Assembly (NCBI GenBank): GCA_946406315.1
Contig: CAMJKD010000005.1
Coordinates: 1-64,000, forward strand
Source: an uncultured Candidatus Saccharibacteria bacterium
GTDB lineage: Bacteria > Patescibacteriota > Saccharimonadia > Saccharimonadales > Saccharimonadaceae
Direction: 5' to 3'
DNA: 64,000 nt
Shown here: positions 52,403 through 58,321 of the stretch, piece after piece
Position numbering within the stretch: the first letter of the stretch is position 1
Layout: each line of letters starts with the position of its first letter
Program-made: the position numbers and the translations under genes
The notes under the pieces: generated by a model
Seen by the model: only the letters and a program-made list of their open reading frames with translations
Databases searched by the model: none
Told to the model about the DNA's origin: nothing

Positions 52403-54751
52403 TTACTCTTTACCAAGAGCAGCTTTTTGGGCAGCTTTCTTGGTCTCGCGTTTTACCTTAGTGGCTTGATCGTATTGCCCCACCGATACATTGTGTTTGA
52501 CACGAGCAGCTTCTTCGGCTTTCTTGCCATCATTCCAACGCTCGAGCGAGCCAACTAGGTATCCAGTAATACGGCGAAGACGCTCGAAGCTAAATTCACC
52601 GTCAGTTTCATGACGACCGCAACCAGGGCAGACATCACCTTCGATAATGCCAGAGAAGCCACAGACTGGATCGCGATCGACTGGGTGATTGACTGAACCA
52701 TAGCCGATACCAGCTTCCTTCATATGGCGAATAACAGACTCGAAAGCTTCGATATTATCAGAAGGATCGCCGTCCATTTCGATATATGTAATATGACCAG
52801 CGTTACAAAGCGCATGGTATGGCGCTTCGATATCGATTTTGTCAAAGGCGGAAATTGGATAATAAACTGGAACATGGAAGGAATTAGTATAGAAATCTCG
52901 GTCTGTTACACCTTTAATTTTGCCAAATTCTTTGCGATCCATACGAGTAAAGCGACCGGCTAAACCTTCGGCTGGAGTAGCAAGAAGCGAGAAGTTGAGT
53001 TTATGCTTCTTTGTGCGACCATCACAGAATTCGCGCATATGACTGACAATGTCGAGGCCGAGCTCTTGCGCTTCGGCTGACTCGCCATGGTGTTGACCAA
53101 TCATCGCAACGAGCGTTTCGGCTAGGCCAATAAAGCCAATTGAAAGGGTGCCATGCTTAATGACATCGCGAAGTTTGTCGTTTGGACCAAGTTTTTCACT
53201 GCCAACCCAGTTACCCTGCCCCATAAGGAATGGGAAGTTCTTGACTTTTTGATTGGCTTGAAATTCGAAGCGTTGAAGTAGTTGTTCGGCGCAAAGATTA
53301 AGCTTTTCGTCGAGTTCTTTATAGAAGCCATCCCAATCTGGCTCCTTGCGTTCGCCAAGACAAATACCATGCTTTATACCGATGCGAACAAGATTGAGCG
53401 TCGTAAATGATAAGTTACCACGACCAGAAACGTGACCGTCGGTTTCTTTGAAGCAAGAACCAAAGACGCGCGTGCGGCAGCCCATAGTTGCAATTTCAGT
53501 ATCCGGATCGCCTTCTTTGTAATACTGAAGGTTAAACGGCGCATCAATGAAGGTGAAGTTCGGGAATAGGCGCTTAGCGGATACTTCCATAGAGCGCTTG
53601 AAGAGATCATAGTTTGGGTCGCCGGGATTGTAATTAATACCTTCCTTAACCTTGAAAATTGAGATTGGGAAAATTGGCGTTTCATGATGACCGAGGCCGT
53701 TCATGGTTGCCTCAAGAAGCATCTTAGAGACGAGGCGACCCTCTGGGCTAGTATCGGTGCCGAAGTTAATTGAGGTGAATGGCACCTGAGCGCCCGCACG
53801 GCTATGCATGGTATTGAGGTTATGAACAAAGCCTTCCATAGCTTGAAGGGTTTGATGTTCAGTATCTTCAACCGAGGCCTTAATAACACTTTCTGGGACT
53901 TTAGCTTTCTTAAGCTTCTTTTCGTCGCCAAGAGTGATATCGTCTTTGATGGTAATCTTTAAGTCTTTACCGGTAAATTCTTCGTATTTTTTGAGATTAT
54001 CCTTGAGGGACTTGCGGAAGGTCTTGTTGACGGATGGAGCTAAGCAGAAATCAAAGAATGGAATAGACTGGCCGCCATGTTGCTCGTTCTGATTTGCCTG
54101 AAGGACGATAGCGGCAAGAGCGGCGGCAGTGCCAATAGACTGCGGCGTGCGAAGGAAGCCATGGCCAGTATTAAAACCGCGATCGAAGAGTTTGCGAACA
54201 TCAGTTTGGCAGCAGGTGAGGGTGCCGGTGGCCAAGAAATCAAGGTCGTGAATATGAATGTCGCCATGATCATGAGCATAGCTAAATTCTGGCTTCAAAA
54301 TGCAGATTTTGGCATATTCCTTGGAACCTTCAGCGCCGAATTGTAGCATTTTGCCCATAGCGGAGTTACCGTCAACGTTAGCATTCCCACGCTTAACGTC
54401 GGAATCCTCCTCGGCATCAAGCTGAGAAATCGTATCATAGGTCTGCATAAGTTTAGTCTTTGCCTCACGGACGCGACTACGTTCAGCACGATATTCAATA
54501 TATGCCTTAGCCGTGCGTTTGAAAGCAGATTCCATTAGGACTTTTTCGACAATGTCCTGAATTTGCTCTACATTTGGAATGCGACTATTAATTTCTTCTT
54601 GCGCAACACGTATTACCTTATCCGAAATATGTACCGCACGATCATAACCGAACTCACCCGTAGCCGCACCGGCCTTTGCTATCGCCTCTGTAATCTTATC
54701 TTGTTTGAAGCTGACAACTTTGCCGTCACGCTTTCTGATTGATTTGAACAT
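52403..54751 (-). CDS. nrdD: Anaerobic (class III) ribonucleoside-triphosphate reductase
   Basis: NrdD reduces NTPs to dNTPs with a glycyl radical and formate. The 782-aa protein starts with an ATP-cone ('IRKRDGKVVSFKQDKITEAI'), the allosteric switch. Near the C-terminus it has a Cys4 zinc site ('DPVCGFSGIIEGDVCPGCG') and the radical Gly in 'RRITGYLVGS'. A charged ~45-residue tail follows the usual end. The start has GGAGG 5 nt upstream. Two pairs of NrdR boxes lie in the 320-bp region upstream. An oxygen-sensitive enzyme fits an anaerobic or facultative host niche. Confidence 0.96.
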   Translation of the reverse strand: MFKSIRKRDGKVVSFKQDKITEAIAKAGAATGEFGYDRAVHISDKVIRVAQEEINSRIPNVEQIQDIVEKVLMESAFKRTAKAYIEYRAERSRVREAKTKLMQTYDTISQLDAEEDSDVKRGNANVDGNSAMGKMLQFGAEGSKEYAKICILKPEFSYAHDHGDIHIHDLDFLATGTLTCCQTDVRKLFDRGFNTGHGFLRTPQSIGTAAALAAIVLQANQNEQHGGQSIPFFDFCLAPSVNKTFRKSLKDNLKKYEEFTGKDLKITIKDDITLGDEKKLKKAKVPESVIKASVEDTEHQTLQAMEGFVHNLNTMHSRAGAQVPFTSINFGTDTSPEGRLVSKMLLEATMNGLGHHETPIFPISIFKVKEGINYNPGDPNYDLFKRSMEVSAKRLFPNFTFIDAPFNLQYYKEGDPDTEIATMGCRTRVFGSCFKETDGHVSGRGNLSFTTLNLVRIGIKHGICLGERKEPDWDGFYKELDEKLNLCAEQLLQRFEFQANQKVKNFPFLMGQGNWVGSEKLGPNDKLRDVIKHGTLSIGFIGLAETLVAMIGQHHGESAEAQELGLDIVSHMREFCDGRTKKHKLNFSLLATPAEGLAGRFTRMDRKEFGKIKGVTDRDFYTNSFHVPVYYPISAFDKIDIEAPYHALCNAGHITYIEMDGDPSDNIEAFESVIRHMKEAGIGYGSVNHPVDRDPVCGFSGIIEGDVCPGCGRHETDGEFSFERLRRITGYLVGSLERWNDGKKAEEAARVKHNVSVGQYDQATKVKRETKKAAQKAALGKE

Positions 54752-54808: not shown

Positions 54809-54857
54809 ACACTATATATAGTGTCTGTTGAGATAATGGTAACGCTATATATGGGGG
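54809..54857. promoter_or_regulatory. NrdR box pair 1
   Basis: ACACTATATATAGTGT (54809-54824, a perfect palindrome and an exact fit to the NrdR consensus) and ACGCTATATATGGGGG (54842-54857) are 33 bp apart centre to centre, three helical turns, as usual for NrdR pairs. Confidence 0.88.
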
Positions 54858-54916: not shown

Positions 54917-54965
54917 ACGCTATATATAGCGTCTTATCTGTTATCTTAGACACTATTGTAGTCAT
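54917..54965. promoter_or_regulatory. NrdR box pair 2
   Basis: ACGCTATATATAGCGT (54917-54932, perfect palindrome) and ACACTATTGTAGTCAT (54950-54965), again 33 bp apart. A TTTTCCACA word (55006-55014) lies beyond. The remaining bases of 54752-55071 hold the promoters of nrdD and the divergent MurA fusion. Confidence 0.85.
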
Positions 54966-55071
54966 TCTTACAACACTCTTGCACTTTTTTGAGTTTTGCA
55001 CATAGTTTTCCACATGGTTTAAATATTCAGAAATGCTATTGTTTTTATGCGTCTCGTGATATACTAAGTGT

Positions 55072-56613
55072 ATGAAAAAGCAAGCTGATTACATGGTTGA
55101 GATAGGAGCAATCATCGCTACTGCTCGTACTCGCCAAAATATGACTCAGGCTGAATTAGCCGACAAAATCGGCACTAGCCAGTCTGCAATAAACAGAATC
55201 GAGCACGGCAAGCAGAATGCTTCGCTTGAGATAATTAGTAAAATAAGTCATGCTCTACGAACGCAAATCGTGACGGTAAACGATACAGCTTCGAAGAGCT
55301 ACCGTATTAATGGAGGCAAGGAATTACACGGCTCAATCACAATTAACACCTCCAAAAATGCAGCTGTTGGCTTGCTTTGCGCCGCTCTCCTAAACGAGCA
55401 GAAAACAACTTTAGTACATCTAGCGCATATCGAAGAAGTCTATCGCATTATTGAAGTACTAGAATCAATCGGCGTAAAAACTGAATGGACTAATAATGGC
55501 CACGATCTCGAGATTACGCCGCCAAAGAAAATCGACTTGGATAATCTAGATATTGAGGCAGCCCGCCGTACGCGTACGGTAATTATGTTTATGGGTCCAC
55601 TATTGCACCGCTTCAGGGAATTCCGTTTGCCTTATGCGGGTGGATGCTCGTTGGGTTCACGTACGGTCGAGCCGCATTTGCACGCTTTGAAGAATTTCGG
55701 TCTGGACGCCGATGCGAAGAGCAATCCTGGTTTCTATGAGGCAACTGTTCGCGAAATTAAAATTGAAGACAAGAAGATTGTTTTAACTGAACGCGGCGAT
55801 ACCGTGACCGAGAATGCCGTCATGGCAGCAGCGCTCTATCCAGGGAAAACTACTATCGTAGGCGCAAGTCCAAATTATATGGTGCAAGATGTTTGCTTTT
55901 TCTTGCAAAAATTAGGCATTGTAATTGAAGGCGTCGGTACGACAAACTTAATAATTCATGGCGTAAAAAGAATCAGTAAAGAAATTAAATATGCGCCAGG
56001 CGAGGATCCAATCGAAGCAATGAGCTTCATTGCTGCAGGTATTGCAACGAGATCTGAGATTGAAGTCAAAAGAGTACCGATTGAATTCTTAGAGATTGAG
56101 CTGGAAGTCTTACGCAGTATGGGGCAAAAAATGCACATTAGTAAGGAGTATCTAGGCGAAAACGGACGCACGAGGTTAGTCGATATTCGATTAAAAAAAT
56201 CTACTTTGAAGGCGCCAATCGATAAGATTCATCCAATGCCATTCCCCGGTCTAAATATTGATAGCCTACCATTCTTCTCTCTAATCGCAGCAACGGCTGA
56301 GGGTAGAACTTTAATACATGACTGGGTATTTGAGAATCGTGCGATTTATTCAACGGAATTATCAAATCTTAATGCAAAAGTTGAGCTATTAGATGCGCAT
56401 CGCATTTTTGTAAATGGTCCAACAAACTGGCGACCAGCAGAGATGATGGCACCACCAGCCCTGCGCCCAGCAGTCGTAATTATGTTGGCAATGCTTGCCG
56501 CTCCTGGTACTTCAATTCTGCGCAATGTTTATTCTATTGCGCGCGGATATGAAGATTTTGCAAATCGCCTGCGTGCTCTTGGCGCAGATATTGAGCCGCT
56601 ATCCGATATTTAA
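55072..56613 (+). CDS. XRE-type HTH domain fused to MurA-like enolpyruvyl transferase
   Basis: Residues 8-65 are a Cro/CI-type helix-turn-helix ('IATARTRQNMTQAELADKIG', 'TSQSAINRIEHGKQN'). Residues ~75-513 are a UDP-GlcNAc 1-carboxyvinyltransferase. The Lys/Asn pair 'SKNAAVGLL', the catalytic Cys loop 'GGCSLGSRTVEPHLHAL' and 'IARGYEDFANRLRALGADI' are present, so the enzyme should be active in the first committed step of peptidoglycan synthesis. MurA normally has no DNA-binding domain. TATACT at 55060-55065 is 6 nt from the ATG (leaderless). It is divergent from nrdD. Confidence 0.9.
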   Translation: MKKQADYMVEIGAIIATARTRQNMTQAELADKIGTSQSAINRIEHGKQNASLEIISKISHALRTQIVTVNDTASKSYRINGGKELHGSITINTSKNAAVGLLCAALLNEQKTTLVHLAHIEEVYRIIEVLESIGVKTEWTNNGHDLEITPPKKIDLDNLDIEAARRTRTVIMFMGPLLHRFREFRLPYAGGCSLGSRTVEPHLHALKNFGLDADAKSNPGFYEATVREIKIEDKKIVLTERGDTVTENAVMAAALYPGKTTIVGASPNYMVQDVCFFLQKLGIVIEGVGTTNLIIHGVKRISKEIKYAPGEDPIEAMSFIAAGIATRSEIEVKRVPIEFLEIELEVLRSMGQKMHISKEYLGENGRTRLVDIRLKKSTLKAPIDKIHPMPFPGLNIDSLPFFSLIAATAEGRTLIHDWVFENRAIYSTELSNLNAKVELLDAHRIFVNGPTNWRPAEMMAPPALRPAVVIMLAMLAAPGTSILRNVYSIARGYEDFANRLRALGADIEPLSDI

Positions 56614-56648: not shown

Positions 56649-56936
56649 ATGGCTATTACTAGAGAAGATGTCTTACATTTGGCAAAACTGTCAAATATTT
56701 CGCTGAGCGAAGAACAAATTGAGCCACTGAAGAAGGATCTCGACAATATCGTCGGTTATATTTCACAGCTCGATGAGCTAGATACCGAAGGCGTTGAGCC
56801 AACTTATCAGTGTTTTGATATGCAGAACGTTTGGCGTGAGGACGTAATTGAAGATTTTGAAGCGAATCGTGAAGATTTGCTAAACCTAACGGTCGAGAGT
56901 GAAGATCATCAGATAAAGGTACCAAAAGTATTATGA
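56649..56936 (+). CDS. gatC: Asp/Glu-tRNA amidotransferase subunit C
   Basis: GatC stabilises the GatAB amidotransferase. The 95-aa protein has the typical 'VLHLAKLSNISLSEEQI' start, 'LDNIVGYISQLDELDTEGVEPTY' and an acidic end. TTGTCA-16-TATAAT (56615-56642) ends 6 nt before the ATG, so the operon mRNA is probably leaderless. gatA starts within its stop codon. Confidence 0.94.
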   Translation: MAITREDVLHLAKLSNISLSEEQIEPLKKDLDNIVGYISQLDELDTEGVEPTYQCFDMQNVWREDVIEDFEANREDLLNLTVESEDHQIKVPKVL

Positions 56937-58321
56937 TTACTGCAGACAAGAACACCAAAGCCGTAGATTTAGTCCGCGCGGCGCTCGACAAAGCAAAAGA
57001 ATACGAGGACTATCATTGCTTCATTTCTATGAACGAAGCTCGTGCGCTTGAACGTGCACGAGAAATAGACGAAAAGATTGCAAAAGGCGAAAAAGTAGGT
57101 CGCTTAGCGGGCGTACCATATGCATTGAAGGATAACTATTTAAGTCCAGAGGGCGTAACTACAGCGGCCGCACGAATGCTCGATAATTTCCCTTCCCCAA
57201 TTACCGCAACGGCAGTTGCTAAATTAGAGGCAGAAGGCGCGATTATGATTGGCCGTACCAATCTAGATGCATACGCACATGGCTCAAGTACAGAGAACTC
57301 TTACTTTGGACCAACCCACAATGCGCACGACATGAGTCGTGTTGCAGGCGGTTCGTCCGGTGGTTCAGCCGTTTCGGTGGCGCTAGATATCGTACCGTTT
57401 GCGCTCGGTTCAGATACGGGCGGTTCGATTCGTCAACCAGCAAGCTATAATGGCGTGTGGGGGATTAAGCCAACCTACGGTGCCGTTAGTCGTTACGGCG
57501 TAGTTGCGATGGCCTCTTCAACAGACACGATGGGCTGTTTTGCGAGGAATGCAGACGATGTCGATTTAATCATGAGTATCATAGCAGGCAAAGATCCAAA
57601 GGATTCTACAACCTTAGATGACTTCTGGAATCGCGAACTCGACGACGCAAGACCAAAGAAAAAGAAGATTGGTATCATTAAAGACTTTCTGAAAGACGGC
57701 GTCGATCCAGAAGTAAGTAAAGCTGTTACTGATTACGCAGACAGAATGAAAAAGGCTGGCTATGAAGTCGAAGAAGTCAGTATGCCGATTATGAAATACG
57801 GTTTGGCAATTTATTACATCGTGCAGCCAGCCGAAGTGGCTTCAAACTTAAGCCGCTACGATGGCATTCGCTATGGGCATCGCGCCGCAGAGGTGACGGA
57901 TTTGGATAGTGTTTATAGTAAGACGCGCGATGAAGGTTTTATGCCAGAAAACAAGCGTCGCATCATGATCGGCAACTTCGTATTAAGTTCTGGCTTCTTT
58001 GATGCTTATTATTTGAAAGCACAGAAAGCACGCACTTTGTTAATCAACGCTTATAATGAGGCCTTTGAAAAATATGATGCCCTGCTTTGCGCCGTTGCGC
58101 CAGCACCAGCGTTCAAGCTCGGTGAAAAAACTGACGACCCATTGCAAATGTATATGGAAGATATGATGAGCGTACTGCCAAGTTTAGCTGGTCTACCAGC
58201 AATTTCCGTACCAGCAGCAACATCGAAGAGTGGTTTGCCGATTGGCGTACAGTTAATTGGTCCACGTAAGAGTGACCAGATTCTACTCAATATTGCTAAG
58301 GGAATAGAGGAGGTTGCCTAA
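56933..58321 (+). CDS. gatA: Asp/Glu-tRNA amidotransferase subunit A
   Basis: GatA releases ammonia from glutamine for amidation of misacylated tRNA. The 462-aa protein has the amidase Ser-cisSer-Lys triad: Lys in 'PYALKDNYL', 'VAGGSSGGSAVSVAL' and 'ALGSDTGGSIRQPA'. It overlaps gatC by 4 bp and the next gene by 1 bp. No Gln- or Asn-tRNA synthetase is seen in this window, and the presence of GatCAB suggests the indirect pathway is used. Confidence 0.97.
   Translation: MITADKNTKAVDLVRAALDKAKEYEDYHCFISMNEARALERAREIDEKIAKGEKVGRLAGVPYALKDNYLSPEGVTTAAARMLDNFPSPITATAVAKLEAEGAIMIGRTNLDAYAHGSSTENSYFGPTHNAHDMSRVAGGSSGGSAVSVALDIVPFALGSDTGGSIRQPASYNGVWGIKPTYGAVSRYGVVAMASSTDTMGCFARNADDVDLIMSIIAGKDPKDSTTLDDFWNRELDDARPKKKKIGIIKDFLKDGVDPEVSKAVTDYADRMKKAGYEVEEVSMPIMKYGLAIYYIVQPAEVASNLSRYDGIRYGHRAAEVTDLDSVYSKTRDEGFMPENKRRIMIGNFVLSSGFFDAYYLKAQKARTLLINAYNEAFEKYDALLCAVAPAPAFKLGEKTDDPLQMYMEDMMSVLPSLAGLPAISVPAATSKSGLPIGVQLIGPRKSDQILLNIAKGIEEVA

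Follow-up and report, generated by a model that had tools for sequence, protein, structure and literature searches.

MurA fused to an XRE DNA-binding domain in Saccharibacteria and related bacteria, with a candidate operator at its own promoter

MurA, the entry enzyme of peptidoglycan synthesis and the target of fosfomycin, is known to be controlled by feedback inhibition, proteolysis or protein partners, without DNA binding, and we know of no DNA-binding MurA. PutA and NadR are bifunctional repressor-enzymes, and in BirA and PutA DNA binding is coupled to ligand or redox state. In such trigger enzymes (BirA, PutA, NadR), one polypeptide is both a biosynthetic enzyme and a repressor of pathway genes, as is predicted for the HTH-MurA protein described here, but none of the three is a MurA or displays the EPSP fold. 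BirA is likewise documented as a bifunctional repressor-enzyme (PMC6391492).

BoxR and BzdR combine an XRE helix-turn-helix (HTH) with a shikimate-kinase-like domain (PMC6449761). They share with HTH-MurA an N-terminal XRE HTH and a C-terminal domain with an enzyme fold from primary metabolism, and they are repressors acting on palindromic promoter repeats, as is proposed for HTH-MurA. However, BoxR and BzdR control catabolic operons whereas the predicted target of HTH-MurA is its own gene, and their kinase-like domain is described as a part of the repressor whereas the enzyme domain of HTH-MurA keeps all its catalytic residues. Unlike in the BoxR/BzdR case, HTH-MurA is also the only MurA of the cell, and its C-terminal domain is EPSP_synthase/MurA rather than the shikimate-kinase-like domain that marks BoxR and BzdR. 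Domain databases may list the HTH-MurA architecture without comment, and a search of the open-access literature, subscription journals lying outside its scope, found no report of it. What is new here is a candidate DNA site at the murA promoter that matches the fused HTH.

The window, i.e. the whole 64 kb stretch of DNA that was analysed, belongs to a 1.07 Mb, 99.5% complete Saccharibacteria genome. Its hth-murA gene (55072..56613, forward strand, like the other features below unless otherwise stated) is a single open frame without internal stop, which opens just four codons 5' of the ATG and encodes 513 aa in which an XRE HTH is joined to MurA. The HTH_3 domain (residues 15-65, 55114..55266) reaches 55.6 bits with Pfam (E=5e-15, cut-off 23), and EPSP_synthase covers residues 80-500 with 169.5 bits (cut-off 22.8); profiles and structure matches delimit a MurA domain of EPSP-synthase fold at residues 76-510 (55297..56601). 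The unbroken frame and these two Pfam domains confirm the intact XRE HTH that an earlier note had read in front of a MurA domain. The same note considered that the HTH could turn out to be a separate gene, with an internal start at about residue 70; the relatives are nearly all full-length, and no start codon is conserved in the linker (the best column reaches 20 of the 92 fused homologues), and a free MurA made from an internal start was rejected on this basis.

The AlphaFold2 model of HTH-MurA (42 homologues, mean pLDDT 88.8), which also supports the HTH_3 domain, displays HTH helices at residues 7-21, 26-33, 37-44 and 52-62, a floppy linker at 68-73 and a confident MurA domain. Conservation and the model designate QSAINRIE (residues 37-44, 55180..55203) as the recognition helix, in which Q37, S38, R42 and E44 are invariant or nearly so. 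In 434 numbering, the Arg10-Glu35 pair and Gln17/Gln28 are what we take to be the core marks of XRE domains; among the 434-like residues of the fused HTH, R19, Q26 and G46 are invariant, and Q37 and E44 invariant or nearly so. The fused domain is therefore of the XRE/Cro-C1 type by both its HTH_3 profile and its 434-type core residues, and its conserved positions are those that contact DNA.

The MurA domain scores 329.7 against the NCBIfam model of the MurA subfamily, PRK09369 (cut-off 297), and 307.1 against the TIGR01072 equivalog, below its cut-off of 392.7, the clade being divergent. The best matches in structure databases are all MurA. Plain MurA proteins, including those of E. coli (1UAE) and L. 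monocytogenes (3R38), have the same fold (TM-score of about 0.9, normalised by target length) and the same active-site residues, and none of the solved MurA structures that were found carries an HTH. Residues K22, N23, R91, C115, R120 and D231 of E. coli MurA correspond to K95, N96, R168, C192, R197 and D312 of HTH-MurA, and D305, E329, R331, R371 and R397 to D397, E421, R423, R465 and R491. These 11 active-site positions are invariant in the 92 fused homologues, save for two E-to-D changes at E421. The Lys/Asn pair and the catalytic Cys reported by the earlier note are indeed all present, as Lys95-Asn96 (55354..55359) and Cys192 (55645..55647). That note had also suggested a search for a second murA devoid of HTH; the 99.5%-complete genome gives one EPSP-family match only, which rules out a second MurA. 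As murB was found, together with a murC match below the cut-off of that model, HTH-MurA is the sole candidate for its step in a genome with MurB and a MurC-like ligase. Judging from its residues, HTH-MurA is probably enzymatically active.

A palindrome that we consider a candidate operator is found at the murA promoter, mostly 8-11 bp 5' of the ATG. Its family consensus is TATATCR-N4-YGATATA, and its right half is TGATATAAT, the extended -10-like sequence that it overlaps. The genus of the window and the sister genus display a variant, TATKCR-NNNN-RTGATATA, with a left half one base shorter and a 5-nt spacer. The proposed operator of the window, TATGCGTCTCGTGATATA (55046..55063), is this genus variant, which is conserved in both genera, and is the sole exact match of the variant pattern in the 64 kb. 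It overlaps the presumed extended -10, TGATATACT (55057..55065), as read from the sequence. The start codon is located 6 bp past TGATATACT, and the murA mRNA is therefore probably leaderless. A -35/-10 consensus scan found no promoter pair upstream of the murA of the window.

The palindrome was first spotted by eye and the detection rule was then fixed, with a false-positive rate of 1.2% on shuffles. The palindrome score reaches 12.7 of 14 at 44 fused loci (versus 9.1 in shuffles) and 8.7 at 22 plain murA loci (versus 8.7 in shuffles). Loci of the window genus, with their degenerate left half (TATKCR, spacer 5), score near shuffles on the family-wide pattern; as the 14-base pattern alone misses this variant (most of L002-L019 are near shuffles), the rule was given a second form ahead of the out-of-sample test. 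The fixed rule detects the operator at 57 of 60 loci with an intact HTH and at none of the 23 plain or degenerate ones; out of sample, it does so at 28 of 32 further intact-HTH loci and at 0 of 8 plain or decayed ones. Globally, the operator accompanies 85/92 murA genes with an intact HTH versus 0/33 with an HTH lost or decayed, the latter comprising 31 loci and two added later (G053 and G087). Among the seven intact-HTH loci that fail the rule, three (L051, L284 and L302) show the core palindrome by eye.

Losses point in the same direction. Two loci with a decayed HTH (L059 and L079) have lost the operator too, and the loss of the HTH inside the family of the window (G053 and G087) is accompanied by that of the operator. 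Nine independent pairs differ in their HTH; about seven (7.1-7.2) are concordant with the operator and none is opposite (sign test, p ~0.016). By comparison between genomes, the fused XRE domain has a candidate cognate palindromic operator.

Furthermore, base 5 of the half-site, which is mostly T but G in some clades, co-varies with recognition-helix residue 36 of the protein (Ser36 in the window, codon at 55177..55179). All 17 proteins with Thr36 have a G at base 5 in at least one half-site, 46 of the 48 with Ser36 have none, the other two being paired with TATAGC, and the single Ala36 protein goes with a TATAAC half-site. Of the 501 protein columns, that of residue 36 predicts base 5 best. 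The Fisher p of 9e-14 takes no account of phylogeny and is inflated by relatedness. The link was noticed and tested on the same data; as the residue follows clades, only three supported independent pairs are available, none of them discordant. The fused HTH and the candidate operator would appear to share a specificity code.

In 20 genomes, exact sites are present at murA in most and only three lie elsewhere, so that the putative regulator appears to serve hardly any gene but its own. Among same-genome controls, a site within one mismatch was found upstream of murB in 1/30 genomes and of murC in 1/29, and a conserved peptidoglycan regulon is rejected on these counts. The two near-consensus sites are directly before murB in G010 (L088) and before murC in G105 (L101). 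In three genomes (L086, L098 and L100), operator-like sites lie in the vicinity of thrS and perhaps of a tRNA. The sister genus g2 (G089, L192, L193 and L208) carries many extra exact operator-like sites, G089 having 14 besides that of murA among the matches listed, and several of the extra sites are 5' of tsaD-like genes. This surplus may correspond to a lineage-specific extension, i.e. an expanded regulon, or to another regulator.

The survey of MurA proteins proposed by the earlier note revealed the fusion across the family and the order of the window and in a second patescibacterial order. In the family, a match was obtained in 142 of 151 genomes, and almost all of these matches include the HTH or are interrupted only where a contig ends or the frame breaks. 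One genus (G053 and G087) departs from this, its murA having lost the HTH and directly following another gene. Among 380 genomes of the phylum, the fusion fills the order of the window and parts of others, and many lineages carry a plain MurA, with an identity of about 50% or, for a distant type, of about 30%. The HTH-MurA fusion is old and widespread, and the enzyme that starts cell-wall synthesis carries a fused DNA-binding domain in many ultrasmall episymbiotic bacteria. With the tree rooted on distant MurAs, the HTH seems to have been gained once and then to have been lost or to have decayed repeatedly; on the larger tree, 14 changes are needed at the most-parsimonious count.

The family f20 (L059, L079 and L314), in which the HTH is decaying or gone and the operator lost, forms a natural loss series; in L079, the decayed HTH lies 5' of the chosen start. 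A long frame upstream of murA in L068 was discarded as an HTH, since it runs over a tRNA-like sequence. Five genomes of the same class but of other families (G198, G243, G370, G430 and G452) only have the distant plain MurA (about 30% identity), which suggests that one MurA type was replaced by another. The bin G607 holds two HTH-MurA copies, C9 and C6 (L283 and L313), each with an operator, owing to either a duplication or mixed strains. The closest named records are MAGs of Candidatus Saccharibacteria, rumen and gut being the source of many. Two records titled Candidatus Nomurabacteria, L116 (JAITNW010000005.1) and L168 (JAIROX010000001.1), encode HTH-MurAs 76% and 65% identical to that of the window, and these labels may be wrong. 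The isolate assembly of Piscicoccus intestinalis NBRC 104926 includes a 65 kb contig (L184, NZ_BCNQ01000015.1) with a Saccharibacteria-type HTH-MurA (62% identity), possibly a contamination or an unnoticed episymbiont.

As a DNA-binding domain is fused to the enzyme and a matching site is present at the murA promoter, HTH-MurA very probably represses its own gene. The earlier note had proposed that the enzyme could also act as a repressor, and this becomes probable with a candidate operator (55046-55063) at its own promoter that co-varies and co-disappears with the HTH. We hold with considerable confidence that HTH-MurA is bifunctional, i.e. an active MurA and a transcriptional autorepressor. 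Comparative genomics documents the fusion, the intact active site, the candidate operator, the co-loss, the covariation in specificity and the near-single target, and the position of the site points to repression. The palindrome consists of two 7-bp half-sites spaced by one helical turn. HTH-MurA, probably in dimeric form, would bind it with its 434/XRE-type HTH, and the 11-bp spacing of the half-sites would fit such a dimer. As the operator and the presumed extended -10 overlap, and as the mRNA is probably leaderless, the bound protein would block RNA polymerase (promoter occlusion), and the level of MurA would set its own synthesis by negative autoregulation. Simple concentration feedback is taken as the default, ligand gating being a possible extension. 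It is conceivable, though rather doubtful, that the MurA domain is a ligand sensor for its own promoter in a one-protein feedback loop; the open-to-closed change on UDP-GlcNAc/PEP, UDP-MurNAc or fosfomycin would then alter the grip of the HTH dimer on the operator, and the enzyme that commits precursors to the wall would report their supply to its own promoter.

Other explanations of the palindrome can be weighed against autorepression. It could be bound by a different XRE regulator, the fused HTH serving as a protein-protein contact or folding module; indeed, these genomes hold further XRE HTHs (weak extra matches), and the near-consensus sites of the sister genus g2 far exceed the needs of murA. 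This is nevertheless improbable, since site and fused HTH vanish together, base 5 tracks residue 36 of the fused HTH above every other column, and the conserved positions of this HTH are DNA contacts. It is very improbable that the HTH has no regulatory role and that the palindrome simply belongs to the promoter, as an extended -10 with a spacer motif. The right half, TGATATAAT, does resemble the -10 boxes of other leaderless genes in these genomes, and specificity therefore resides only in the left half and in the covariation; however, the left half is located within the spacer, is lacking at plain murAs and at the promoters of murB and murC in the same genomes, and co-varies with the HTH. 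The scan having yielded no good -35 hexamer, HTH-MurA could conceivably assist RNA polymerase at its operator, as an activator. Most sites, however, cover the presumed -10 and end 8-11 bp before the probable leaderless start, the classical position of a repressor, and activation appears unlikely.

The earlier note had further suggested that wall and dNTP synthesis might be linked through shared control of murA and nrdD (anaerobic ribonucleotide reductase; 52403..54751, reverse strand). In the genus of the window, the two genes are indeed divergent, with a 320-bp spacer. However, nrdD has its own NrdR boxes, two perfect palindromes 108 bp apart and assigned to neither strand, ACACTATATATAGTGT (54809..54824) and ACGCTATATATAGCGT (54917..54932), where 0.10 are expected in the window, and an NrdR homologue (120.4 bits, just below the cut-off of 124.65) is encoded elsewhere in the genome. 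These boxes share the intergenic region of the candidate operator but differ from it in sequence (ACACTATATATAGTGT) and regulator, and serve nrdD. Moreover, the operator lies on the murA side, some 295 bp away from the start of nrdD, and nrdD adjoins murA at 8/9 loci of the window genus and at none sampled outside. On the NrdR boxes, the NrdR homologue and this genus-limited adjacency, the coupling was dropped, and it is scarcely credible that HTH-MurA exerts it. Downstream, gatC-gatA (56649..58321) is similarly conserved only within the genus among the loci sampled.

Nature provides ready-made test pairs for autorepression by HTH-MurA, in the Ser36/Thr36 operator code and in the repeated losses of the HTH. 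If true, this would be one of the rare regulatory circuits at promoter level to be inferred across uncultivated CPR bacteria, and a very economical one given a genome size of about 1 Mb. The host-dependent Saccharibacteria and their relatives would then govern entry into wall synthesis with one self-repressing enzyme.
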